Below are positions 6,875 through 26,917 of a DNA stretch of 64,000 bases, in pieces. The position numbers and the translations under genes are program-made. Source of the stretch: Rubrivivax sp. (GTDB lineage: Bacteria > Pseudomonadota > Gammaproteobacteria > Burkholderiales > Burkholderiaceae); NCBI GenBank assembly GCA_016790225.1, contig JAEUOZ010000033.1, forward strand, positions 1-64,000, in the 5' to 3' direction. The stretch's first letter is position 1, and each line of letters begins with the position of its first letter. Below the pieces are notes generated by a model that saw only the letters and a program-made list of their open reading frames with translations, did not search any database and was not told where the DNA came from.

Positions 6875-7020
6875 CGATCCGGGGCGGCTGCTGGAACGCC
6901 GCGGCTCATCAGCCTTGATGAGCCCGCGGCCCGCGGCCATTGACCCGGGCAGGTGGCAGGCGCAAGCTGATCTCACAGGCGGGCGGAATCGAATCTTTCG
7001 CCCCCAGGAGGAGACAGACC

Positions 7021-8946
7021 ATGCCGCTGAACATGACCTATGGCGATGTGCGCAGGCTCATCGCCGCCGAGACCCTGGGCTGGCAGCCGCGCGCCAGCAT
7101 CGGCGATGCGGTGCGCCTGCCGGCCTACCCGGTGGGTGCGAGCGAAGACGGGCTGACGCCCGACGCACGCACGCCGCAGCAGGACTTCCGCAGCCTGGGC
7201 GTGAGCCTCAATCCACAGCTGAGCCTGCGCCGCCTGCAGCGCGGCTATGCCCCGGCCGACGAGGTGCTGCGCGTGCACACGCCGCAGGTGCTGCAGCGCA
7301 TGGGCCTGGACCCGGCCCGTGCCGTGCGCCAGACCGCTGCCGATGCGATCCCGCCCGAAGGCGGCGCACCGCCCGCTGCGCTGGACTGGCGCAACCGCTG
7401 GGGCCAGAACTGGATCACCACAGTGCGCGATCAGAACCCCTGCAACGCCTGCTGGGCCTTCGCCGGCACGGCGCTGATCGAGGCGATGCTGCGCATCGAT
7501 CACGCGATGTGGGCGCGGCTGTCCGAAGGCGATGTGCACCGCGGCGTGGGCAAGAGCTGCCCCGATCTGGGCAACCTGGGCGAGGTCTCGGCCTTCTTTG
7601 CCGCCAAGGGGCTGTGCGATCCGGGCAGCTGGCCCTGGCAGACCGGCAACCCGCCCTATGCCCCCACGCCGGACCGCAACGGCCGCAGCGTGCGCGGGCC
7701 AGCCTTCGAGCTGGTCTCGGTGGCCGATTCGCGCAACTGGCTGGATACCGTCGGCCCGCTGGTGACCTGGATCGACATCTACAACGACTTCAGCGCCGTG
7801 GGCAGCACGGTCTACCGCCGCAGCACCGATCCGGCCAACGCGCTGCGCGGCGGCCACTTCATGCTCATCGTCGGCTACAGTGACGCGTTGGGGGCCTGGC
7901 TGTGCAAGAACTCCTGGGGCACCGGCTGGGGCATGGCCGGCTATGGCTGGATCGCCTACGGCGACAGCCGCATCGACGCCTTCGGCCGCTACGGCCTGCG
8001 CAAGACCAACCCCGATCCCTGGACCAAGCGCCGACTGCACAACGGCAACCTCTACGAAAGCGGCAACGGCGCGCTGCACCGCAACCTGGAAGTGGCCGGC
8101 TCCAACGGGCGCCGCGTGCTGCACCGCTGGCGCGAGGGCGGCCACCCGTTCACCTGGAACAGCGCGCGCTCCTTTGCCCGCGATGCCGCGGCTTGCCCCA
8201 GCCTGATCGGCAGCACCATCAACCGCAACATGGAGATGGTCTACCTCACCAACAGCGGGCGTCTGCGCCACTGGTGGACGGATGGCGGCGGCGGCAATGC
8301 CTGGTCCGACGGCGGTGTCTTCGGCCCCACGGGCTGCACCGGCACGCCCGGCTTCGTGCAGGGCAGCCACGGCGCGCCGGGCAACTTCGAGGTCGTGGTG
8401 TCGGTACGCGGCGGACGGCTGCAGCATGTGTGGCGCGATGGCGCCGGCTGGCACAACGGCGCGCTCTTCGGCAGCTCCATCGCGCGATCCGGCGCCTCGC
8501 TGGTGCAGAGCAGCTACGGCAGCCCGCACGGCAACCTGGAGTGCGTGGCCGTGCGCACCGACGGCTGCCTCCAGCACTTCTGGCGCGACGAGGCGCGCTT
8601 CGCATGGAACGAAGGCGCCATCTTCGGCCGCGGCATCAGCAGCCCGCCGGTGATGATCCAGGGCCAGTACGGCATGCGTGACGAAAGCGGCCCGCACGGC
8701 AACTTCGAGCTGTGCGTCGCCGTGGGCGGCAGCGTGCAGCACTGGTGGCGCTCCAACGCCGGCGGCGATGGCCTGTGGCGCCACAGCGCCACCTTCGGCC
8801 GCGACATCGCCGCCGTCGCCGGCCTGTGCCAGAGTTCCTGGGGCATGAACCTGGAGCTCATCGTGCTGCGCACCGACAACCAGCTGCAGCACCTGTGGCG
8901 TGATCAGGCCGGGTGGCACGCCGGCCCGATCATCGGGCCGGCTTGA
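7021..8946 (+). CDS. C1 papain-like cysteine protease fused to a PLL-type lectin beta-propeller
   Basis: 641 residues. A ~110-residue N-terminal pro-like region precedes a papain-fold domain at about 118-330. The catalytic set is visible: oxyanion Gln in RDQNPCNACWAF, C144 (ACW), H279 (GGHFMLIVGYSD) and N297 (CKNSWGTGWGMAGYGWI). From about 340 to the end the protein consists of repeated blades bearing LQHxWRD-type motifs (LRHWWTD, LQHVWRD, LQHFWRD, VQHWWRS, LQHLWRD), as in the PLL/PHL family of fucose-binding seven-bladed lectin propellers. AGGAGGAG stands just ahead of the ATG. No Sec signal is seen, so export, if any, uses another route. The fusion suggests a protease targeted to glycans. 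The following 114-residue gene may belong with it. Confidence 0.85.
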   Translation: MPLNMTYGDVRRLIAAETLGWQPRASIGDAVRLPAYPVGASEDGLTPDARTPQQDFRSLGVSLNPQLSLRRLQRGYAPADEVLRVHTPQVLQRMGLDPARAVRQTAADAIPPEGGAPPAALDWRNRWGQNWITTVRDQNPCNACWAFAGTALIEAMLRIDHAMWARLSEGDVHRGVGKSCPDLGNLGEVSAFFAAKGLCDPGSWPWQTGNPPYAPTPDRNGRSVRGPAFELVSVADSRNWLDTVGPLVTWIDIYNDFSAVGSTVYRRSTDPANALRGGHFMLIVGYSDALGAWLCKNSWGTGWGMAGYGWIAYGDSRIDAFGRYGLRKTNPDPWTKRRLHNGNLYESGNGALHRNLEVAGSNGRRVLHRWREGGHPFTWNSARSFARDAAACPSLIGSTINRNMEMVYLTNSGRLRHWWTDGGGGNAWSDGGVFGPTGCTGTPGFVQGSHGAPGNFEVVVSVRGGRLQHVWRDGAGWHNGALFGSSIARSGASLVQSSYGSPHGNLECVAVRTDGCLQHFWRDEARFAWNEGAIFGRGISSPPVMIQGQYGMRDESGPHGNFELCVAVGGSVQHWWRSNAGGDGLWRHSATFGRDIAAVAGLCQSSWGMNLELIVLRTDNQLQHLWRDQAGWHAGPIIGPA

Positions 8947-14610: not shown

Positions 14611-17600
14611 TCAGGTGGCCGGCTTGTCCCAGAGGTCAGCCGCCTTGATCAAGGCATCGATCGCGTCGCGCGACGCCGAAGACCAGGGGTGCGTGGCAGC
14701 GGCCATCAGATCGCGCAGGAACATCAGGTGCAGCCGCGCCGACTGCACGTTGCGCTGCGTGCCGGCGCGATCAAACGCGTGACGGTACTTGGTCTCTGCC
14801 TGCTCCCTCAGGTCACGCACACGCTCCGCGTCCTCGGCCTCGGCCAGCAGCCGCGTGACGAGCAGATCGCCCTGGCCAACAGCGCGCCAGGTCTCGTGCG
14901 TGGCGGCCAGGCGCTCTTGGTCGGCCTGCTGCAAGGCCCTCAGCTGCTGGATGGCGTCGGGGCGCCAGGCCTGGATGGCTTCTCGGTCGGTACCGCTCCA
15001 GACGCCTTCTTCGTGACCCAGCAGCAGGGCCCCGGCGAAGCCATTGGACACCGGGTAGTAGTCGTCGCCGCCGGCGCATTCCTGGGCCTTCTTGTAGGCC
15101 TGGGCCATGTCGAACAAGGCCTGGGACCGTCCCGCAGGATCGTCGCGCGACAGCAAGGCGCGGCGCTTGTGCGCGCTGCCCAGCAGCGCCCAGGTCTCGC
15201 GCTTGTGGCTGTTCGGCGCCAGCTCGGCCAGCAGCCGGGTGGCCGAGGCCAGCTCCTCGCGCAGGCTCTGACGTTTTTCTTCAGTGGCGACGGCCTTGGC
15301 CTTCGCTGTGTCGGCCTTGGCGCTTGCATCGGCTTCGTCGATGCGACGCCACTCCTTTTCCACCTGCCGAACGCGGCGGTTGGCCAGCTGCTCCAGCGCC
15401 GCCAATGGCGCCTGGTCATCACCGGCCGACACCGCGGTCTTCAGCCAGGCCTGCGCCTCGTCGCTGAGCTCGGCCTCCACATAGAGCTGGCCAATGGCAC
15501 CGGCCACGTCGCCGCGGCGCAGCCAGGCCTCGCCCGCCGGCCCCGGCGGCACCCGCGCGCAGCGGGCCTGCACATCGGCCAGCAGGCGCTTGCGTCGATC
15601 TTCGTCCAGTTTCTCGCGCTGCTCGCCGTTGTAGAGACCGGCGCGGAGGTTGTCGACGTCCACCACCAGCTCGCGCGGGGATACATAGCGGGGCGCGCTG
15701 CCGCCTGAGCCGCCGCCCTGGTTGATCACCAGCCGCCAGCCGGGCTCTCCGTAGCACTGGTAGGCGCCCCAGGTGTTGCGCTGCGGGTGGCGGCGGTAGG
15801 TCTCCTGCCGCGCCTCGTGCACCGCGTCGCGGAAATTGGCACCGCCCAGCAGACGGCGGTAGAAGGTCTGCGCAAAGGTGACGCCGGCCTCGTCATCGAC
15901 GGCCCAGCCCGAGGCAATCACCGCACGCACGCCCATGCGGATCAGCGCCACGGCCACATTGGCCGCCAGCCGGTTGGTCTGCGGGTTGGCGACCGTGGTG
16001 CGCCCCAGCTCGCAGCAGTTGATGAAGACCAGCTCCGGCACGTGGCGCAACTGCTCGAAGTCACCCGGCTGCAGGAAGACCCGCTTGCCGATGATCATGC
16101 CGCTGCGCTCAGGCTGCTCGTCGTTTTCCTTCCAGCGGTGCACGCCGTGGGCGGCCAGGTGCATCACGCGCCAGGGCCTCAGGTGCAGCGCGCCGGTGAT
16201 CGCCCGCGTGGACGCCTGCGTCGCGCCCAGCAAGGCATGCACCGCCGGGGCGCCCAGTTCCTCCTCGAAGATCCGCGCCACCTGGCGCGCCTCTTCTTCG
16301 GCACCGGGCAGTTGCTCGAAGGCGCCCCAACCGGACAGCTGCGGATCGCCGATCACCAGCACCGCGTTCTCGGCCGCCATGCGCGGCGCGCCCCGGTACT
16401 CCACCGTCTTGAGCTGCCGCACCAACGCGGTCTCCACCGCCAGCGGCCGGCGGTTGGGGCCCCAGCGGTCTTCCAGCAGCTCCCAGGGGAAGCGCGCCGA
16501 GCGCTCGTCCAGCAGCAGCACCAGGCCGCGCGAATCGGGCGCCGCGAGGCGGAAGTCCACCGGCAGCAGCATCTCGTAGAGCGTCTTGCCGATCTCTTCG
16601 TTGTTGTCGGTGCTGCCGATGGCCTCTTCGATGAAGTTCTCCACCAGCGCCACCTGGCCGGTGTTGATGGCCTGCTCTGCTCGCGCACGCTGGCCCGCCG
16701 TGGAGTAGCGCAGCTGGCCGGCCGTTTCGTCCTCGAGGATCTCGACCCGCAGATCCCAGCCGCGGTCGCTGTCGAAGACGCTGCGTCGCCGTCCGCCCAG
16801 CGCGGTGGCGATGTCCACTTCGGCCGGATCCCACTCGGTGGCGGCGGCCAGATCGTCGGCCAGGCGCAGCTCATGCAGCGCGTGACCCGTGGCCACCGCA
16901 ACGTCCTCGAACAGCTCGACAAACTCCAGCTCCTCGATGAGCACCCGGTCCTGCAGCTCAGCCTCCCCCAGCTTGAGGTTGGCGTCCAGCGCGCCGCGCA
17001 GCAGCGCTTCGAGCGACTCGCGCACCGAGAGACCTGCACCCGCACTGCCCACCAGCAGGCAGGACAGCCCGATGCCACCCTGGGCTGAGCGTGCGCCCGG
17101 TCGCTGCAGGCACTGGCGCGCGTGATCCAGCATCGCATCGCGCGCGGCCGCGCGCAGGCGCCCGGCCGTCAACTCGCCCACCTGCCCCAGGCCGATGACC
17201 AGCGCCCCCTGCACGCCGCGGGTGGCCCGGCCATCGGGCACGGCATCGGCAAAGAAGCTCATGCGCGTATCGCTGCGCCCGGGGTAGATGCCCAGGCGCA
17301 GCGCCTTCTGCAGAGCCTGGTTCAGGGCCTTGTCCAGCGCGCGTTCGGCGCTGACCAGCAGGTCGCCCTGGTAGTGGCCCACCACCACCGGGTGGCGCGC
17401 CGCCACCCGCAGATCGCCGTGGCGCACGCTCAGGCGCAGACTGCGCTGGCGCGTGGGTGCCGCCGCGCGACGCCGCCGGCGCGCCTGGCCCAGGCCCAGC
17501 TGGCGCAGCTCGTCTTCCGAAGGCATGGCATCGGCCGGCGGCTGCACCAGCTTGAAGCTGGTTCGTTCACCCCGCTGGCGTGCCGGCGGTGCGTCCGGCA

Positions 17601-20247
17601 GCTTCTGCGTGTGCCCGGTGTTGATGAGCTCGACATAGGCCGCAAAGATCCGCGGATCGTCTTCGTTGTTGCACAGCTCATCGTGTGCGGTGTCAGGGGC
17701 ATACCAGGTCGGCACCTCCGGCAGCCGGCCGGATTCCCAGCTGACGGTGCCATCGCCTTCGCGCGTGGCCAGCCAGCCCAGGCTGCGAAAGCCCGTGTGC
17801 TCGTCGGTGACGACCTCGCTGCCGATGACGGTGGCGCTTGCGCTGCCCGCCACATAGCGCATGCGCGCCTTGTCCACCGGCGCCTCGCGCAGCAGCTTCC
17901 AGACCTCGCGCGCCTGCTGCAGCAAGGCCGGCTCGACGAGCGGGAAATCCACCCCGCACAGCTTGCCCCGCTCGGCCCAGACCTTGGGGTCGCAGCTGGC
18001 CTGCTCCTGTTCCACCGTTCCGAAGGGCAGCAACTGCACCAGGCCAGGAAAGTGGCGCACGATCTCCATCAAGCCGTTGACGCCGCGCGTGAAATCCAGA
18101 AACGCCAGTTTGGCCTGCGAGGGGTTGTGTCCCGTGAGCCAGCGCACCGCCTCCATCGAACCCTGGTTGGGCGTGCCCAGCATCAGCAGGCGGCCGGGGC
18201 CGGCCTTCAGCGCACCCAGGCGTTCCCAGAGCTGGCTGCCGCCGTTCGCAGCATCGGCAAAGAGGCAGCGCGCCACCAGCCCGCCCATCGAATGGGCGAC
18301 CACGTGCACGGCCACGCCTTCGCTTTCGGCACGCTGCAGGCAGGCTTCCAGCCGCGGGCGCAGCGCCTGGGCGTTGTCGCGCAGGGACAGGCGCCAGTCA
18401 TAGGGCACGGCCTCCACGCGGAAGCTGCGCGAGAGGTGGTCGATCAGCGGCCCGTAGAAGCCTTCCAGCGGCTCGGTGGCGACCACGGCGCCCTTGGGGA
18501 GGTCTGCCCGCGGGTCCAGCAGCTCGATGCCACCGCCCAGCAGCTTGAGGTAGGCCAGCCACACCGGCTCTCCGGACACCTGCAGCGCCGAGCCCATGGC
18601 GCCCGGCAGGAAGACGACGATCGGCCGCGCGCGGGTATCGGCCGCGCTGCGCGCCAATGCGCTGCGCGCGCGCGGCTGCTCCTGGCGCGCCTGGCGGATA
18701 TCGGCAAAGGCGCCGGTTTCGTGGTCCTGCCGCAGCAGGCCCTGCTGCAGCCAGGCCAGGCTGCCCGGATTGAGGAAGTAGCGGCTGTGGCTCACCTGCG
18801 GCCCGCGATCCTCCAGCGCGCGGGCCCGCCCTTCCAGGCGCAGAAGGCCGCCGTTCATCGAGCCGGTATTCACGACCAGGTCGTTGTCGGCGCCGTAGAA
18901 CCAGTCGGCCACGAAGGACTTGAGCCGGTTGAACAAGCCGCTGCCCTGCGTATCGCCGGCAATCACCGAGAGATCCGCGCCGGTGACCAGGCCCGCATTG
19001 AGCAGGCGCGTGAGCGCCGAGCCCGGCATCATGGCTTCCACGCCGGGCATCACCCGCGCATCGGTGCGCTCCTTGAGCACCGCGAGCAGGAAATCCAGCG
19101 CATCGCCGACGAAGCTGTCCGGCACCACGCTGTGCAGCAGCCCCAGCCAACGGTCCAATCGAGCGGACGCCAGCGTGGTGCCGCGCGCCGGGCAGGCCAC
19201 CCGCACGAAGCGCGTCACCGTGATGCGCTTGGCCGCGAGGCTCTGCACCAGCTGGCGCAGCCGCTTCGCATCGGCCGCATAAGCCTCCTTCAGCGCCTTG
19301 GCCTCGGCCGGCGCCAGCGGCGGCAGGCCGGCCGGCCGCAGGCGCTGCGGATCCTCGGCCTCGAAGAGCTGGACGATCAGCGCTTCCAGACGCTCAGCGC
19401 TCTTGTCGAGCTGGGCCAGCGCCAGCAGTTCGCCCACCAGCCCGCCGCGCGAGTGAGATACCAGGTGCAGCTGCGCGCCATCCGGCAAGGCATCCACCAG
19501 GTTCTGCGCATTCTCGATCGGGCTGCGCGTGAGCGTCTGGTGCTCGAAGGCAAAGATGCCGTCCCCATAACGCTTCACCAGCGCCTGCCGCAGCTCGGCC
19601 GCCGGCCGTGCACCCTCATCGCTGCGCGGATCCACCAGACCACCGTAGGCCGCCTTGAAGTGGGAGAAGGTGCCGTGGATGAAGATCAGCAGCGGCCGCG
19701 AGGGTGCGGCCAGGGGCGCGTCCAGCGCCAGCAGCGGTGCCTGCGGCGACTGCAGATCGCAGCGGAACAGCGCTTCGCGTCCCATCAGCAGCCGCTTGCG
19801 ATCCACCACGCCCGCCAGCAGCCCGGCCGTGCTCTGCTTCAGATCGACGCCGAAGAATTCCAGCACCTTGATGCCGACCGAGAGCACCCCGCGCTCTGCG
19901 GTGCCGGGCGAATCCAGATCCAGCTCCACCAGATCCTCATCACCCGGCATCCGCGTGCCGCGGTCCGCCGCCGCCGAGCGCTCACGCAAGGCCCGCAGCT
20001 CGTCCGCCCGCAACCAGAGCTGCTGGCCCCCTTCAAAGACCACCCGCACCAGCTCGTCGTTGCCCACCTTGAGCTTCTCGGCGGCTGGCGAAGCGCTGCG
20101 CGAGGCCGCATCGATCATCACGCGCCGTGCGGAGACGATGCCGAGGTTGCGGCTGCTCAGCTCGGGAACCTGGGTGTCCAGGACGGCGCGGATGGCGTAG
20201 GCGCCGCTGGAGCTGGACGAAGCATTGGATGCATTGTTCTGGGCCAT
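14611..20247 (-). CDS. giant CHAT-domain protease with two alpha/beta-hydrolase domains
   Basis: 1878 residues. An N-terminal ~150-residue region is followed by a first alpha/beta-hydrolase domain (LLIFIHGTFSHF; nucleophile S266 in VSHSRGG) and a second, LCAT-like one (IVVFLPGAMGSAL; S653 in VAHSMGG; MLGTPNQGS). A ~300-residue region with repeated 'ALVIGLGQVGELTAGRL'-type motifs leads to a CHAT (caspase-like) protease domain at about 1240-1470 with H1367 (HLAAHGVH) and C1412 (NCCELG). The last ~400 residues are helical and TPR-like. No membrane segment. AGGAG precedes the ATG. It lies 246 bp behind the nSTAND gene on the same strand, with a hairpin between, so it may have its own promoter. 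Context suggests it is the executor activated by the TIR/STAND genes; its target is unknown. Confidence 0.85.
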   Translation of the reverse strand: MAQNNASNASSSSSGAYAIRAVLDTQVPELSSRNLGIVSARRVMIDAASRSASPAAEKLKVGNDELVRVVFEGGQQLWLRADELRALRERSAAADRGTRMPGDEDLVELDLDSPGTAERGVLSVGIKVLEFFGVDLKQSTAGLLAGVVDRKRLLMGREALFRCDLQSPQAPLLALDAPLAAPSRPLLIFIHGTFSHFKAAYGGLVDPRSDEGARPAAELRQALVKRYGDGIFAFEHQTLTRSPIENAQNLVDALPDGAQLHLVSHSRGGLVGELLALAQLDKSAERLEALIVQLFEAEDPQRLRPAGLPPLAPAEAKALKEAYAADAKRLRQLVQSLAAKRITVTRFVRVACPARGTTLASARLDRWLGLLHSVVPDSFVGDALDFLLAVLKERTDARVMPGVEAMMPGSALTRLLNAGLVTGADLSVIAGDTQGSGLFNRLKSFVADWFYGADNDLVVNTGSMNGGLLRLEGRARALEDRGPQVSHSRYFLNPGSLAWLQQGLLRQDHETGAFADIRQARQEQPRARSALARSAADTRARPIVVFLPGAMGSALQVSGEPVWLAYLKLLGGGIELLDPRADLPKGAVVATEPLEGFYGPLIDHLSRSFRVEAVPYDWRLSLRDNAQALRPRLEACLQRAESEGVAVHVVAHSMGGLVARCLFADAANGGSQLWERLGALKAGPGRLLMLGTPNQGSMEAVRWLTGHNPSQAKLAFLDFTRGVNGLMEIVRHFPGLVQLLPFGTVEQEQASCDPKVWAERGKLCGVDFPLVEPALLQQAREVWKLLREAPVDKARMRYVAGSASATVIGSEVVTDEHTGFRSLGWLATREGDGTVSWESGRLPEVPTWYAPDTAHDELCNNEDDPRIFAAYVELINTGHTQKLPDAPPARQRGERTSFKLVQPPADAMPSEDELRQLGLGQARRRRRAAAPTRQRSLRLSVRHGDLRVAARHPVVVGHYQGDLLVSAERALDKALNQALQKALRLGIYPGRSDTRMSFFADAVPDGRATRGVQGALVIGLGQVGELTAGRLRAAARDAMLDHARQCLQRPGARSAQGGIGLSCLLVGSAGAGLSVRESLEALLRGALDANLKLGEAELQDRVLIEELEFVELFEDVAVATGHALHELRLADDLAAATEWDPAEVDIATALGGRRRSVFDSDRGWDLRVEILEDETAGQLRYSTAGQRARAEQAINTGQVALVENFIEEAIGSTDNNEEIGKTLYEMLLPVDFRLAAPDSRGLVLLLDERSARFPWELLEDRWGPNRRPLAVETALVRQLKTVEYRGAPRMAAENAVLVIGDPQLSGWGAFEQLPGAEEEARQVARIFEEELGAPAVHALLGATQASTRAITGALHLRPWRVMHLAAHGVHRWKENDEQPERSGMIIGKRVFLQPGDFEQLRHVPELVFINCCELGRTTVANPQTNRLAANVAVALIRMGVRAVIASGWAVDDEAGVTFAQTFYRRLLGGANFRDAVHEARQETYRRHPQRNTWGAYQCYGEPGWRLVINQGGGSGGSAPRYVSPRELVVDVDNLRAGLYNGEQREKLDEDRRKRLLADVQARCARVPPGPAGEAWLRRGDVAGAIGQLYVEAELSDEAQAWLKTAVSAGDDQAPLAALEQLANRRVRQVEKEWRRIDEADASAKADTAKAKAVATEEKRQSLREELASATRLLAELAPNSHKRETWALLGSAHKRRALLSRDDPAGRSQALFDMAQAYKKAQECAGGDDYYPVSNGFAGALLLGHEEGVWSGTDREAIQAWRPDAIQQLRALQQADQERLAATHETWRAVGQGDLLVTRLLAEAEDAERVRDLREQAETKYRHAFDRAGTQRNVQSARLHLMFLRDLMAAATHPWSSASRDAIDALIKAADLWDKPAT

Positions 20248-20493: not shown

Positions 20494-23400
20494 TCAGCGA
20501 CCGCGGCTCTGTGACGCCGCGGGTGCGGTGGACGATGCAGCCGATGAAGTCGATGCGAGCTTGGGCGACGACTCGGCCTTGGCCGTCAGCTGCGGGCTGT
20601 TCGCCAGAATCTCCTGGCTGAGCTTCTGCAAGGCAAGCAGACTGAACGGCGATGCCACCGGCACAGCGTCAGCGGCACCGACCACGCGGGAGGCGAGCCA
20701 TCCGTCGAAGGCACCCCCCTTGGTTCCGATCCACCACTCGCGCTGCGTGCCCGGTTTCTGAGTGGCGAAGGTCCAGCTGACCAGCGGCCGGAGCTCTGCC
20801 TCAGGATGCATGGCCTTGGTGGCGGCGATCAGGTCACGGCTGTAGATCCGCGCTTGCAGAAGCTCGGTGCGCGCGTCGGGATGGTCCGCGATGCCGGGAT
20901 GCGAGGTGCCCGTGTACTGAACCACGGCCACACACAGATCGCTGCCAGCGACATCGAACATGTTCGCCTTGACGGCCTCGTTGCCCCTTCCTGCGGGAGC
21001 CAGCTTCTCCTCGGCCTCGAGTTGTCCATTGACCGCCGCCTCGAGCGGTGCGCAATCCGTCGCTTGGGAACGCTTTCGAAGCGGCGCCCAAGTGGCTGCC
21101 TGGTCTAGCGCTGCGCTGCGCAGCGGCTGCGCTTCGCTGAACAAGACCCGCCAGTGATGGGGCTTGGCTGGCGTTCCGACCGCGACATCCAGACCGCCTG
21201 GCATCCCGCTTGCGGGCAAGATCTTCGCTGGCGTGAAGGCCTCGTTCTTGAGCCAGGGCTTTCCGATCTCAGCCAGCACATCGTTCAGGCGCGGATCCTT
21301 GATGAAGCGCCTCTGCTCGAAGCGTGAACCCACTTGCCTGGTCCCGGGGTCCCAACCCCAACTGGCGTTGAACAGGGTGATGCCCGGCGAGGGCTCGGTA
21401 TTGACCAGGGCCATGAGTTGACCCGTTTCCTCGAACAGAAGAAACGGCTGGATATGTTTGGGAAACGTCTGGACAAAACGCAGGATGCGGCAAGAGGGCG
21501 TGCTTGACGCTCCGCCAGGCACAGGGGTGAGAGATGCCTCAAAGATGACGAGATCTGACTCCGCGCCCGGATCAGCTTGCGGAATGAAGAATCCTCGCCT
21601 GGGCTCCTGGGTCTTGACGATCCTTCCGGGTTGAGGGCCTCGGTCTGCCTGTTCGCAGGAGTCAGGGTCAGCCCGAGCCGGGGTGGAGCGGCCCGCTGCA
21701 CCCTGCTTCGCGCCGCCTTGACTCCACACGGCTGAAACGAGCAAGCGACGCGTCTCACTCAAGACCGAAGGCTCAGAGCTCGAAGCCCTTGCATTCAGGA
21801 GAATGTCCTTGATCAAGGGAAGTCCCGTCCAGATGGCCTCGGACTGATTGCTGCCCTTGGTGACGGACCGAGCGGCTTGCAAGAGCTCCTGCAGTTCACG
21901 TTCGGCGTGGCCTTCGTTTTGACTGCCTTCCGACAGCGTTCGCGACTCTGTCTGCATTCGCGCCTTGCTGAACAGCACCATGCTGTCCAGCGAAGGCCAC
22001 AGCACCTGGTTGACGAAGAGGTACAAGACAGCCGACGGCACCGCGACCAGCCCCACGATGCCCAGGCCCATCGTCAGATTGCGGCGCGCAAGCGCAGCCG
22101 CCTGAGCCTGCTCGACCTGGAGCAAGGCGACCCGCTCTTTGGCCAGTGCTGCCTCCGCGGCGACATGCTGCTGCTCCGCGCGCAACTCGGCTTCACGCTG
22201 CGCCACCTTGGCCTGCTGTTCACGCTCTCGCGATTCCCGCTGCACCGCTTCAAGGCGACGGCGCTCGGCTTCTTGCCGTTGCTCTTCCTTGATGCGCTCA
22301 AACTCGGCAGCGCGCAGGCGCTCCGCTTCTTCAAGCGACTGCGCCCGTTCGCGGGAACCCTGGAGAAACTCGAGCAGCAGCGACTCGAGCGCTTTCTCGC
22401 CCAAGGCATCGCCCGACCTGAATTTTCTGAGGGTCTTGAACCACCTGCGCCGCTGTCGGCCGTCCTGCAAGGATGCCTCCAGGCCCGCTGCGTCCAGCTT
22501 GATCAGCTCTTTTTCGCTCAAGAGCAAGGATTCCGCGGACGGCGAGTTGATTCGCCTGGCCACGCCCCACTCCCGGCAGCTGCGCATCAGGCTGACAAAC
22601 GCTTCGAACCGCTCCGCGTCCTTGTCTATCAGCCCGCGAAAACGAGACCAGCCCCGAATGAAAGCCTCATGCGAGACCTTCAAGGTGATGGCATCCGGGT
22701 TTTCCTTGTCCCAGTACAGATAGTTGACCGTATCGAGAAATCCCTGCTTCAGCAGCTTCTCAAGTCGCGCGGCGGGATCGCCAGCGCCGGGCAGGACATC
22801 CTTGTCGTCAACCCGGATCCGCTCCTGAAAATACAATCCATTGTTGGGATCCTTGAACGCCAGCAAGCGCAACAAGGTCTCCACTTGGGAGCGCTCAAAT
22901 TCGTCCCGAAAACTCAACAAATACTCTGGCCAATTCTCCAGGCACAATCTCAGCGTATTCTCGCCTTCACGTCTCTCCAACCAGCCCTGTTCCAGCCGGC
23001 CAGCCGGATCCACCGCACGTTCAAGATCTTCGTCCACGATCCGCGAAGGAAAGCGGTCACGAAGGGGCAGACCCTCCCGCTCCAAAGCAGCGCCCCACAC
23101 GCGCGCCAGAAGATGCTGCAAGAGTGGCAGATGATCGGGATCTTCCGAGATCGCCCTCACGTCGCGGAGGATCCGCGCAACAACCCGCCTGGAAAACTGC
23201 ACCGGCTCCACGGGCGGCGAATCCGGTGTCATCAAGGCCAGCTGCAGTTCGCGAGCCGGCTCTTCGATCACGGCCAGCAGCTCGATCTGGTTCAGGCGCC
23301 GCACCAGATACGAAGAGCTGTTGATGGCATCCGGCAATTGCAGATAGCCCGCACAATCAGCGAGCCGCTCGCTGCGCATGGTCATGACGACATACGCACT

Positions 23401-24045
23401 ATCCGAAGGCTCCAGAAAATGCTCGATCACCGCTTCCACGATGCGTTGCGCATCGTGATTCTCAGCATTGTTGCTGTGGAAAAGTTCTTCGAACTGATCG
23501 ATCACGAACAAGAAGCGTGCTCTCGATGAATCCGGTCCCCGGTGCGCCAGATGGTGGTGGTAACTCTGGACGAGATCTCCAAATCCGGCGCCTTGGCGGA
23601 TATAGGCCGCCACTTCATCGCGAAGGGCCAGATCCACCTTCTGGCCGTCGGGTTCTCCCAACAGTGCCTGGGCAAACTTCCACGCCAGACGCAGCACGGG
23701 TGTTTCCGAATTCTGAGGCGGCAACACAAGGTCTGATCCGGTTTCCTGGCCGCCAATGGTTCCAGGCGTAAAAACTACCGGTATCCAGAAATCGCCCGCC
23801 TCCGGGATACCCTGTGCCCGCAAGCGAGGCACGAGGCCGGCACGAATCAGCGAGGATTTGCCAGAGCCCGATCCGCCGATCACGGCGACAAAGTGCGTGC
23901 GCTTCAGTCGCTCCAGAATGCTGTCGATCTGGCTGTCCCGCCCCTTGAGCAGAACACTTTCGTGATCCAGAAATGGGCGCAAGCCCGGATAGGGCTCTCT
24001 GATCCGCCGTCGCTCCCACCAATCTGACGCAAGGCCTTGGTTCAT
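20494..24045 (-). CDS. nSTAND-type P-loop ATPase with coiled coil and transmembrane segment
   Basis: 1183 residues. The N-terminus PYPGLRPFLDHESVLLKGRD leads into a STAND-class NTPase: Walker A GGSGSGKSS (57-65, Lys63), Walker B LFVIDQFEELF (Asp about 183) and the sensor-like VVMTMRSERL. This is the nSTAND1 type, a nucleotide-switch platform that normally ends in WD40 repeats. Here it continues instead into a long Glu/Arg/Gln coiled coil (about 555-655), one membrane helix (about 660-682, MGLGIVGLVAVPSAVLYLF) and a ~500-residue C-terminal region with no recognised repeat. The ATG at 24043-24045 follows GAGGAGAGG; an upstream in-frame TTG is less likely. It starts 23 bp after the TIR gene, so the two are co-transcribed. 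Likely role: sensor/scaffold of a signalling or defence complex. Confidence 0.85.
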   Translation of the reverse strand: MNQGLASDWWERRRIREPYPGLRPFLDHESVLLKGRDSQIDSILERLKRTHFVAVIGGSGSGKSSLIRAGLVPRLRAQGIPEAGDFWIPVVFTPGTIGGQETGSDLVLPPQNSETPVLRLAWKFAQALLGEPDGQKVDLALRDEVAAYIRQGAGFGDLVQSYHHHLAHRGPDSSRARFLFVIDQFEELFHSNNAENHDAQRIVEAVIEHFLEPSDSAYVVMTMRSERLADCAGYLQLPDAINSSSYLVRRLNQIELLAVIEEPARELQLALMTPDSPPVEPVQFSRRVVARILRDVRAISEDPDHLPLLQHLLARVWGAALEREGLPLRDRFPSRIVDEDLERAVDPAGRLEQGWLERREGENTLRLCLENWPEYLLSFRDEFERSQVETLLRLLAFKDPNNGLYFQERIRVDDKDVLPGAGDPAARLEKLLKQGFLDTVNYLYWDKENPDAITLKVSHEAFIRGWSRFRGLIDKDAERFEAFVSLMRSCREWGVARRINSPSAESLLLSEKELIKLDAAGLEASLQDGRQRRRWFKTLRKFRSGDALGEKALESLLLEFLQGSRERAQSLEEAERLRAAEFERIKEEQRQEAERRRLEAVQRESREREQQAKVAQREAELRAEQQHVAAEAALAKERVALLQVEQAQAAALARRNLTMGLGIVGLVAVPSAVLYLFVNQVLWPSLDSMVLFSKARMQTESRTLSEGSQNEGHAERELQELLQAARSVTKGSNQSEAIWTGLPLIKDILLNARASSSEPSVLSETRRLLVSAVWSQGGAKQGAAGRSTPARADPDSCEQADRGPQPGRIVKTQEPRRGFFIPQADPGAESDLVIFEASLTPVPGGASSTPSCRILRFVQTFPKHIQPFLLFEETGQLMALVNTEPSPGITLFNASWGWDPGTRQVGSRFEQRRFIKDPRLNDVLAEIGKPWLKNEAFTPAKILPASGMPGGLDVAVGTPAKPHHWRVLFSEAQPLRSAALDQAATWAPLRKRSQATDCAPLEAAVNGQLEAEEKLAPAGRGNEAVKANMFDVAGSDLCVAVVQYTGTSHPGIADHPDARTELLQARIYSRDLIAATKAMHPEAELRPLVSWTFATQKPGTQREWWIGTKGGAFDGWLASRVVGAADAVPVASPFSLLALQKLSQEILANSPQLTAKAESSPKLASTSSAASSTAPAASQSRGR

Positions 24046-24068
24046 GACCCTCTCCTCGTGATGGCGTC

Positions 24069-25217
24069 TCAATGGCCGAGTAGTTGACGCTTGTGCTCCA
24101 ACGTTCTTCGCAGAAACACGGCGAGATCCCGCGCATCGTCGGCAACGATGCGCAGCGTATCCGGCTCGTCATGCCGAATGCTCAACCTCACCACGGGCCA
24201 TCGCTGTATGTTTCTAGGGACATCCTCGTTAGGTTCTTCAGCACGCATGACGTACATGATCAAACCGGGAATCGGTGACTTCTGGGTCAGCATGGGCTCC
24301 AGGCGTCGCATCTGATCGATCACGGAATCGCGGGCCTTCTTGTCCCAAATCAGGACCACGCCGTTGGCACCGTCAAGACGCGGTCGTGCACTAAGGTCCT
24401 GAAGCGGCAAACCGGTGGGCCGCAAGATGAATGGAGGTTCTCTGGGCTCCAGGGCCATCACCTGCTCCCACGCGCTCTTGATCTGCTGTGCAAGAGGTTC
24501 CCACAAGGCTTTGCGATCCGGCTCGCTCTCAATGTAAGTCAGCACATCCGAAGGATCCTGCTCCGATTCACGAGGCTCCGACGGGCCCTTGTGAATTTCC
24601 CGCTCCTTGAAGAGCCATTGATTGTGATCGTAGGCATCCCAGGCATATTCAAAGAGCTTCTCGCGGAAGCGTGTGAACGGCTCGGTAAACTCCGTTGAAA
24701 TGACGGCATTGCTGCCTTGTTTCTTCTTGAGATAAATTCCGATCGGCTCGTTCGGATTGCCTTCCTCACGTTGATGAAAGGGTATCCAGACTGGATCCGG
24801 CTTGGGGAAATGCAGCTTCCACTCATCCTTCCTCGTCAGACGGAGCATCGCCCGCTGCGACATGGCAACAATGAAAAGCCTGGTCTTGTAGGCTTCGGCG
24901 CCGTGGATTTCCCTGAAATACTCCAGCTCCTTGAGGCACCATTCCGACCCGACATAACCATCGTGCACGAAGATGATCATGGAGAATGATTGCCGGATGG
25001 CGAGCCTGAGCTCGTCGCTGAGCGCACCGTTGATCGGCCCATTCTTGCTGCTCATGAAGGTCTTGGGCGGCTCGAGTTCGCGAAGCCTGGACTTGATGCC
25101 GATATTCAGTTCATTGTCGAAGTTGGTTATCCAGTCATACCAGCCCGTATCATCATCATGCGCATAACTGACGAAAGAGAAATACTTGTAATGATCTTCA
25201 TGATACTGCTTCAGCAT
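24069..25217 (-). CDS. TIR domain protein
   Basis: 382 residues. The first ~170 form a TIR domain: FSFVSYAHDDD (strand A/box 1), SFSMIIFVHDGYVGSEWCLKE with the SxWCxxEL motif, whose E97 is the position of the NADase catalytic glutamate in enzymatic TIRs. The remaining 200 residues contain a second alpha/beta-looking domain (GVVLIWDKKARDSV). It could cleave NAD+ or act as an adaptor; sequence alone does not decide. Its ATG directly follows the TAA of the radical SAM gene (no gap), implying translational coupling. TIR proteins (FxsC) accompany rSAM cyclophane maturases in actinobacterial FxSxx systems, which is the closest known parallel. GC content is clearly below the window average. Confidence 0.85.
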   Translation of the reverse strand: MLKQYHEDHYKYFSFVSYAHDDDTGWYDWITNFDNELNIGIKSRLRELEPPKTFMSSKNGPINGALSDELRLAIRQSFSMIIFVHDGYVGSEWCLKELEYFREIHGAEAYKTRLFIVAMSQRAMLRLTRKDEWKLHFPKPDPVWIPFHQREEGNPNEPIGIYLKKKQGSNAVISTEFTEPFTRFREKLFEYAWDAYDHNQWLFKEREIHKGPSEPRESEQDPSDVLTYIESEPDRKALWEPLAQQIKSAWEQVMALEPREPPFILRPTGLPLQDLSARPRLDGANGVVLIWDKKARDSVIDQMRRLEPMLTQKSPIPGLIMYVMRAEEPNEDVPRNIQRWPVVRLSIRHDEPDTLRIVADDARDLAVFLRRTLEHKRQLLGH

Positions 25218-26550: not shown

Positions 26551-26874
26551 TCAGCGATTCAGCCAGTTCACCCAGTTGTTCCAGTTCTTCCAGTTGTTCC
26601 AGTTGTTCCAGTTGGCCCAGTTCGGCCAATTGAGCCACTGGTCGGCGCTGGGCGCCTGCGCATCACCTGAATCGGACGCCAGCAAATCTGCACGAACCAT
26701 CTCGACACGGGCCTCCAGCGCCGCCCGCTCAGTGTCCACCAGGCTCGCAGCAACAGCCTGCCCTGGGCCAGCAGCAGTGCCTGCCAATCCGGCCAGGCCG
26801 ATCAGCACAAGCAGCTTGCGCGCCGCCGACTTGATCGACCATCGACGATTCAATTCGTTGAATTGTGGATTCAT
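26551..26874 (-). CDS. RiPP precursor peptide with nine tandem Trp-x-Asn triplets
   Basis: 107 residues. MNPQFNELNRRWSIKSAARK precedes a hydrophobic stretch (LLVLIGLAGLAG) and an AVA-AS site after residue 42, a Sec-type signal peptide. A charged helix (SLVDTERAALEARVEMVRAD) resembles the leader of GrrA-type 'rSAM-associated' precursors. After a DAQAPSADQ linker, residues 80-106 are nine uninterrupted WxN triplets with x = L, P, A, N, N, K, N, V, L, then a terminal Arg. WxN is the substrate pattern of three-residue cyclophane maturases. The ATG at 26872-26874 is preferred: GGGGAG lies eight bases upstream. First gene of the cassette. Expected product: a rigid, exported, Trp-rich cyclophane peptide. 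The chemistry is inferred. Confidence 0.85.
   Translation of the reverse strand: MNPQFNELNRRWSIKSAARKLLVLIGLAGLAGTAAGPGQAVAASLVDTERAALEARVEMVRADLLASDSGDAQAPSADQWLNWPNWANWNNWNNWKNWNNWVNWLNR
26557..26637 (-). repeat. nine 9-bp units encoding WxN triplets
   Basis: 81 bp of tandem degenerate 9-mers (consensus TGGAACAAC on the coding strand). Trp is always TGG and the third codon is AAC except in the first and last units (AAT); the middle codon varies. The repeat is in frame with the precursor gene and ends one codon before its stop. Confidence 0.95.
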
Positions 26875-26917
26875 GCCCATTACTCCCCATTTGTGACGGG
26901 AGTTTGGCGTCAATTCT

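Follow-up and report, generated by a model that had tools for sequence, protein, structure and literature searches.

Introduction

To our knowledge, triceptides are known mostly as chemistry. The part of PMC11002830 consulted here describes how OscB joins Trp C7 to the Cβ of Asn or Asp, and Phe C4 to the Cβ of Asn, in each case between residues i and i+2. Radical S-adenosylmethionine (SAM) clusters 19, 27 and 63 are reported, in the consulted portion of PMC9062424, with Aro-Xaa-Asn and Aro-Xaa-Xaa-Asn peptides that are predicted cyclophanes. The FxSxx peptides of actinobacteria are encoded with a radical SAM gene and a TIR-bearing AP-ATPase, and have been proposed to act as a toxin or signal (PMC7159879, in part); section 24 of that article names only FxSxx, RxD, acidic and FtsH-associated peptides. 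Here we analyse a 64,000-nucleotide stretch of DNA from Rubrivivax sp. (assembly GCA_016790225.1, contig JAEUOZ010000033.1, positions 1 to 64,000; hereafter the window), which encodes a candidate precursor of a ribosomally synthesized and post-translationally modified peptide (RiPP) ending in a tandem WxN array. The genes for its maturase, a TIR-domain protein and an nSTAND1 NTPase are contiguous and on the same strand as the precursor; the latter two were absent from a preliminary description of this peptide. We propose that the cross-linked product may belong to a defence-like switch.

A WxN array beside a GrrM-family maturase

The precursor reads MNPQFN...WLNR and carries nine WxN triplets without interruption, starting at residues 80, 83, 86, 89, 92, 95, 98, 101 and 104, with middle residues L, P, A, N, N, K, N, V and L; an Arg closes the peptide after the array. 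The preliminary description, which named no strand, had placed the same nine triplets at residues 80-106 of a 107-residue peptide, which proved exact, including every middle residue. Its view of the peptide as an exported RiPP precursor is also supported, with the export signal judged by eye: the putative signal peptide has a basic start, a hydrophobic stretch and AVA/A, and was not flagged by a 19-residue hydropathy scan at 1.7. An in-frame TTG lies at 26913, upstream of the precursor start, and the plus-strand translation of 26551-26874 is not an open reading frame (ORF). Scanning the window in six frames for at least three tandem aromatic-x-polar triplets returned a single further run, HEDHYKYFSFVS, which lacks WxN, and no tandem WxN run of three or more other than that of the precursor. 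The DNA of the array is itself a repeat of 9-bp period with an 87-90% match.

The neighbouring maturase scored 371.2 bits against TIGR04261 (cut-off 310), and maturases from four other loci (L123, L126, L147 and L198) likewise lay over this cut-off. It contains CNIDCDYC, corresponding to the radical SAM CxxxCxxC pattern, and its C-terminal Cys residues are spaced as in L123-L125. A maturase of GrrM/FxsB type had been anticipated; the GrrM/OscB assignment held, whereas an FxsB-type system was rejected (TIGR04269, 103.1 versus 370 bits). Because OscB links Trp to Asn at i and i+2, each WxN corresponds in form to a substrate motif already known for OscB, which bears out the earlier suggestion that every triplet is a potential ring. 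The cyclophane reading of the array is thus well supported at the level of sequence, and a product with up to nine rings would be an extrapolation from the maturase family. The conserved leader motif RAALEARVEMVRADL is likely the site recognized by the maturase.

In a maturase tree of 33 rows the window grouped with L123-L125 (support 100/99), and this group next joined L147-L149, which have short cores (96/90). The label 'tandem WxN' requires at least two changes on the tree, and its deeper placements are unsure because of long branches or unusual composition in several rows. At more distant GrrM loci the cores are short or Gly-rich instead of tandem WxN: precursors beside GrrM genes of the cyanobacterial phylum are Gly-rich with spaced WGN, FAN and WGD, and have the same kind of leader, our heuristics having named no precursor for about half of the GrrM loci in that phylum.

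The array in related precursors

A DNA scan for four tandem TGGNNNAAY units plus TGG matched at least 118 loci. Among the matches listed, 13 were precursor-like by eye and the other 105 read as repeats in other frames, noncoding DNA or other ORFs; with so many judged non-precursor, WxN repeats in DNA were dropped as a family test on their own. At the protein level, a search with the precursor returned 10 proteins including itself, each with a Trp-rich tandem end. Relatives in an alignment of 16 precursors (A3) were 30-57% identical overall to the window precursor, and a profile built from this alignment matched 1,236 proteins at E ≤ 0.001. In a sample of 121 precursors gathered after that search, in which the best 120 of the 1,236 matches were listed, strict tandem WxN of 4-11 units was found in 120, eight units being commonest (59/121), and a loose R-phi-x-x-phi-R/A/S leader pattern in 119. 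Within A3, leader residue R56 was invariant and R61 was kept in at least 90%. Most of the precursors compared have, by eye, a signal-like N-terminus (basic start, hydrophobic stretch and AxA-like site), which was not seen in the Desulfospira-type precursor or in the L126 ORF as called.

Triplet composition was tallied for 22 of 28 precursors of mixed origin, the six without an array of at least five triplets being left out. Among the 174 triplets of these 22 arrays, position 1 was W in 173 and F in one, position 3 was N in 158, D in nine, K in six and R in one, and position 2 held 14 different residues. Since W and N are retained across the relatives, whose middle residues differ, we rate the window array above a DNA repeat. 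These figures are biased upward, because most of the arrays had been located through WxN itself, by similarity or by pattern. Loci L123-L126 were found through the maturase alone and not through the WxN pattern. The run occurs in all five same-type loci with a precursor on the contig (L123-L126 and L209), with K for N in some triplets, so a lack of conservation in homologous loci, which the preliminary description had named as a refutation, was not borne out in the close relatives; in L125 and L126 five triplets end in K and the pattern is imperfect. With 1,236 relatives, and tandem WxN in 120 of 121 precursors, sequence comparison places the array in a large family, the tandem-core branch of the known GrrA/GrrM triceptides. 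It is accordingly not the isolated, distinct product that had been suggested; Gly-rich GrrA peptides share its kind of leader and have spaced W/F-x-N/D motifs.

Linkage to TIR and nSTAND genes in Burkholderiales

Genomes were searched with the maturase alone at E ≤ 1e-50. Around a Paucibacter genome (record G001), matches were obtained in 4/399 at the level of family, 3/349 of order (Burkholderiales) and 1/321 of class. Further draws gave 4/10 in the genus of one match (two already found), 3/12 in the family of another (none new), 15/146 in the phylum of Leptolyngbya PCC 7375 and 2/240 in the class of a Roseobacter; the draws have centre genomes in common, and Leptolyngbya and Roseobacter were picked as centres because WxN loci occur in them. 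Nine other GrrM loci, all found by maturase, were thereby available from the order of the Paucibacter record (L123-L126, L147-L149, L208 and L209).

An nSTAND gene was present in 8/8 of these with enough contig (L123-L126, L147-L149 and L208; the contig of L209 ends before it), and a TIR gene likewise in 8/8 (L123-L126, L148, L149, L208 and L209; that of L147 ends before it). In the window, as in L123-L125, the precursor, maturase, TIR and nSTAND genes directly follow one another. The order in L126 is TIR-nSTAND-precursor-maturase, and in L147-L149 the nSTAND gene stands tail to tail with the maturase gene and the core is short, of AQWPNGSGWRNGGWRNY type. The linkage to TIR and nSTAND thus persists despite changed order (L126) and orientation (L147-L149). 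When the first seven Burkholderiales genomes were searched with PF20703, an nSTAND1 gene over the cut-off lay inside the GrrM cluster in 7/7. The same seven genomes hold 13 PF20703 genes over the cut-off, one to four each, and 3/14 control genomes have one.

In the window, the TIR gene begins at the base after the maturase stop (gap 0). Its product scored 29.5 bits against TIR_2 (cut-off 28) and carries SEWCLKEL; the Glu of this C-x-x-E motif, which we take to be the catalytic Glu, was present in 10/10 TIR sequences compared. A structural model of the protein (predicted local distance difference test, pLDDT, 73) gave Foldseek matches to the plant TIR domains of RUN1, Roq1 and RPP1, including a RUN1 structure with NADP+; these ranked below matches to GFAT-1, which were rejected (root-mean-square deviation ~21, TM ~0.2). 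The nSTAND1 protein scored 177.9 bits against PF20703 (cut-off 27.1), and its start is either TTG 24072, giving a 4-base overlap with the TIR gene, or ATG 24045, as in P0011. By hydropathy it has a hydrophobic helix at about residues 669-690, followed by a C-terminal region of about 500 residues. Such a helix follows the NTPase part in 9/11 nSTAND proteins; hydropathy gave none in the L124 and L198 proteins, and in L198 a 614-aa protein next to nSTAND has one. A search for homologues of the C-terminal region returned the query alone among 7,995 candidates scored by word search, from which nothing is concluded.

Table 1. Features of the precursor and of the genes downstream of it in the window
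Feature	Coordinates	Strand	Basis
Precursor, 107 aa	26551..26874 (stop codon included)	-	translation; homologues P0002-P0010; alignment A3
Putative Sec-type signal peptide, ~residues 1-42 (boundary uncertain)	26749..26874	-	by eye, from sequence and alignment A3
Leader motif RAALEARVEMVRADL, residues 50-64	26683..26727	-	conservation in alignment A3; loose pattern
Core, nine contiguous WxN, residues 80-106	26557..26637	-	translation; conservation
GrrM/OscB-family radical SAM/SPASM cyclophane maturase, 421 aa	25218..26483	-	TIGR04261; Radical_SAM PF04055; Cys pattern
TIR-domain protein, 382 aa, C-terminal alpha/beta part	24069..25217	-	TIR_2; Foldseek; conserved Glu
nSTAND1 NTPase	20494..24072	-	PF20703; hydropathy
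DUF7379/LCAT-like hydrolase + CHAT + TPR-S, 1878 aa	14611..20247	-	Pfam

Loci outside Burkholderiales

A Desulfospira locus (L065/L199) encodes a TIR protein, an nSTAND-TPR protein, a WxN precursor, two radical SAM enzymes and an ABC exporter (L199 5905-14319). The precursor has a different leader and no signal peptide, and the radical SAM enzymes are non-GrrM, lying below every listed curated cut-off. A Bacteroidetes record (L030/L198) holds a caspase-domain gene, nSTAND1, the 614-aa protein mentioned above, a WxN precursor and GrrM; the caspase-domain gene and a gene for a 133-aa protein (15817-18033) lie upstream of nSTAND1 and the precursor. In the cyanobacterial phylum, L155 (1867-10490) combines subtilase, CHAT-SIR2 and nSTAND1-WD40 genes with GrrM and a GrrA-like leader whose core is degenerate. 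Loci L150, L151 and L203 gave weaker matches to an nSTAND hidden Markov model (HMM). As a crude control with our own HMMs, nSTAND or TIR was found in 0/105 non-precursor repeat loci (752 kb) versus 4/13 precursor-like loci; two of the four matches are weak, and the other two, which are strong, come from loci used in making the HMMs but are confirmed by Pfam. Searching with the TIR protein at 1e-3 in seven genomes with WxN loci or used as a centre gave 0/7, a search that misses distant TIRs, since L065 has a TIR by Pfam. Proteins of 1157 and 1039 aa adjoin GrrM in L197 (11016-14489) and L205 (11349-14468), respectively; they have no Pfam match and, by eye, a hydrophobic N-terminal region.

Further genes in the window

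The 1878-aa hydrolase/CHAT gene lies 246 bp downstream of nSTAND on the same strand and is possibly part of the island. Neither the whole protein nor its CHAT part had a phmmer match in the relatives' loci, in a search insensitive enough to miss the Pfam-visible CHAT of L155; because relatives offered no close match, the gene was rejected as a core part of the system. The stretch from precursor to nSTAND in the window contains neither an exporter nor a protease gene. A promoter and terminator scan gave no promoter-like sequence and three terminator-like sequences versus 5.4 expected. Further away, on the plus strand (6940-8946), an ORF has papain-like protease motifs by eye (NPCNACWAFAG and NSWGTGWG).

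A possible mechanism and its alternatives

The array, the maturase family, the TIR protein with its Glu, the nSTAND protein with its hydrophobic helix and the conserved linkage of these genes in one taxonomic order can be read from the sequence. From them we infer cross-links, topology, interaction, trigger and outcome in a tentative model, to which we give a probability of roughly 0.4, in which a TIR-nSTAND switch is served by a periplasmic cross-linked rod. According to this model, GrrM would bind the leader motif in the cytoplasm and link each Trp C7 to the Cβ of the Asn two residues on, forming up to nine contiguous rings, after which the signal peptide would export the rod to the periplasm. 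Its partner there would be the membrane-anchored nSTAND1 protein, with the C-terminal region of nSTAND1 facing the periplasm and the rod serving as ligand, bait or signal. Disturbance of the rod by an invader or by envelope damage would cause nSTAND to oligomerize and activate the TIR protein, which would then deplete NAD+ and stop the cell. We favour service to the switch over a secreted antibiotic because the proposed topology puts the peptide and the sensor tail on the same side of the membrane. A broader version, held still more tentatively, makes a rigid RiPP rod with multiple cross-links an integral component, for sensing or signalling, of membrane-anchored TIR-nSTAND immune switches in Gram-negatives, a coupling that would have evolved repeatedly and with different maturases (GrrM in Burkholderiales, other radical SAM enzymes in Desulfospira, FxsB in actinobacteria).

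Several observations weigh against the switch model. Loci L123, L124, L208 and L209 come from one genus and L147-L149 from one family, so the Burkholderiales sample amounts to about three or four independent lineages in the order. The L123 protein falls below the TIR_2 cut-off (22.6 versus 28), the hydrophobic helix of L124 and the signal of L126 were undetected, and our TIR and nSTAND HMMs were built partly from loci that they then match. The model of the nSTAND1 C-terminal region (pLDDT 53.5) was not usable, and PADLOC returned no TIR-STAND defence match, only pVip to the maturase and a weak mads_3 to nSTAND. Non-GrrM maturases accompany four WxN cassettes (L199-L202), and of these L199 alone has TIR-nSTAND, L200 and L202 being on short contigs. 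With our own HMMs, and with some contigs short, there was no nSTAND or TIR match in 14/17 loci of the cyanobacterial phylum, in six alphaproteobacterial WxN-genome regions (L192-L197), in alphaproteobacterial L205 or in L204. Because the module went unmatched in so many loci, WxN/GrrM peptides can evidently exist without it.

This last set of loci is also what one would expect of an ordinary GrrM/GrrA-type triceptide with its own envelope or ecological role, to which the TIR-nSTAND genes are joined merely by sharing an island, and the CHAT/hydrolase gene without a close match in relatives fits the same picture. We consider this unlikely, as the same partners recur in rearranged and reoriented clusters, all seven genomes searched have nSTAND1 within the GrrM cluster, and the window TIR gene directly abuts the maturase stop. 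Slightly less unlikely, and ranking close to the favoured switch, is that the cross-linked peptide is instead the effector: a toxin or membrane-active rod released or amplified by TIR-nSTAND, or else a message to neighbouring cells, as has been suggested for the FxSxx peptides. Tandem rods rich in Trp might associate with membranes, and an ABC exporter gene stands beside the WxN cassette of Desulfospira L199. Against this, no exporter, peptidase or immunity gene lies between precursor, maturase, TIR and nSTAND in the window or L123-L125 (genes further out are not all annotated), and in Gram-negative bacteria a Sec signal alone would take a peptide no further than the periplasm. A third alternative, in which the array is an artefact of repetitive DNA or forms a Trp-rich tail that stays unmodified, appears very improbable. 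The 9-bp periodicity and the 105 non-precursor loci of the DNA scan would suit it; W and N are nevertheless kept in the protein while the middle residue is free, the leader is conserved, and the maturase-found loci L123-L126 and L209 have the run beside the maturase.

Were the tie to TIR and STAND genes conserved, a branch of the triceptides would gain a biological role, and NLR-like systems that include a modified peptide would extend beyond the FxSxx group. A core of contiguous WxN units, for its part, would amount to a naturally occurring blueprint for rigid polycyclophane rods, and would make a clean substrate with which to ask whether radical SAM catalysis is processive.

Comparison with known systems

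The closest described system is GrrA/GrrM (OscA/OscB; TIGR04260/TIGR04261), with which the locus shares a maturase over the cut-off, a signal-like N-terminus, a leader motif and an Aro-x-Asn core. Unlike the Gly-rich GrrA peptides, the window precursor has a contiguous WxN core without Gly spacers, and its TIR and nSTAND genes are contiguous. The TIGR04260 model (GrrA/OscA1) did not match the window precursor even at E up to 10, nor those of L123, L150 and L198; it placed 4/4 Gly-rich control precursors over the cut-off and left the L147 and L155 precursors below threshold (19.1 and 18.6 versus 31). The second-best model for the window maturase was AmcB of the actinobacterial cyclophane maturases (NF041718), at 306.6 bits and below the cut-off of 425. 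AMC precursors carry several rings.

In the open-access literature we found no tie between GrrM and TIR or STAND genes, and the nearest precedent is the FxSxx-COOH system (FxsA/B/C/T), in which, as far as the consulted part of PMC7159879 describes it, a radical SAM/SPASM gene and a peptide are likewise linked to a TIR-bearing ATPase. In contrast to that system, the window scored 22.6 versus 130 bits for the TIR-like FxsC (NF040588), its precursor ends in WLNR with no FxSxx end, and it has nSTAND1 and a separate TIR gene; none of the five proteins tested matched vWA or MoxR. Clusters 19, 27 and 63 resemble the window in having aromatic-to-Asn peptides beside radical SAM genes, and the portion of PMC9062424 consulted mentions no TIR or STAND neighbour. 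The domains TIR, nSTAND, CHAT and TPR-S are shared with the TIR/STAND/CHAT/caspase conflict systems, as covered in the parts of PMC7159879 and PMC8195603 used here; the words 'radical' and 'maturase' are absent from the main text of PMC8195603. Tandem WxN cores may already have been described in the primary triceptide papers. The chemistry of the locus is thus of a known kind, and its contiguous WxN core, together with the TIR-nSTAND operon, is a variant of it.
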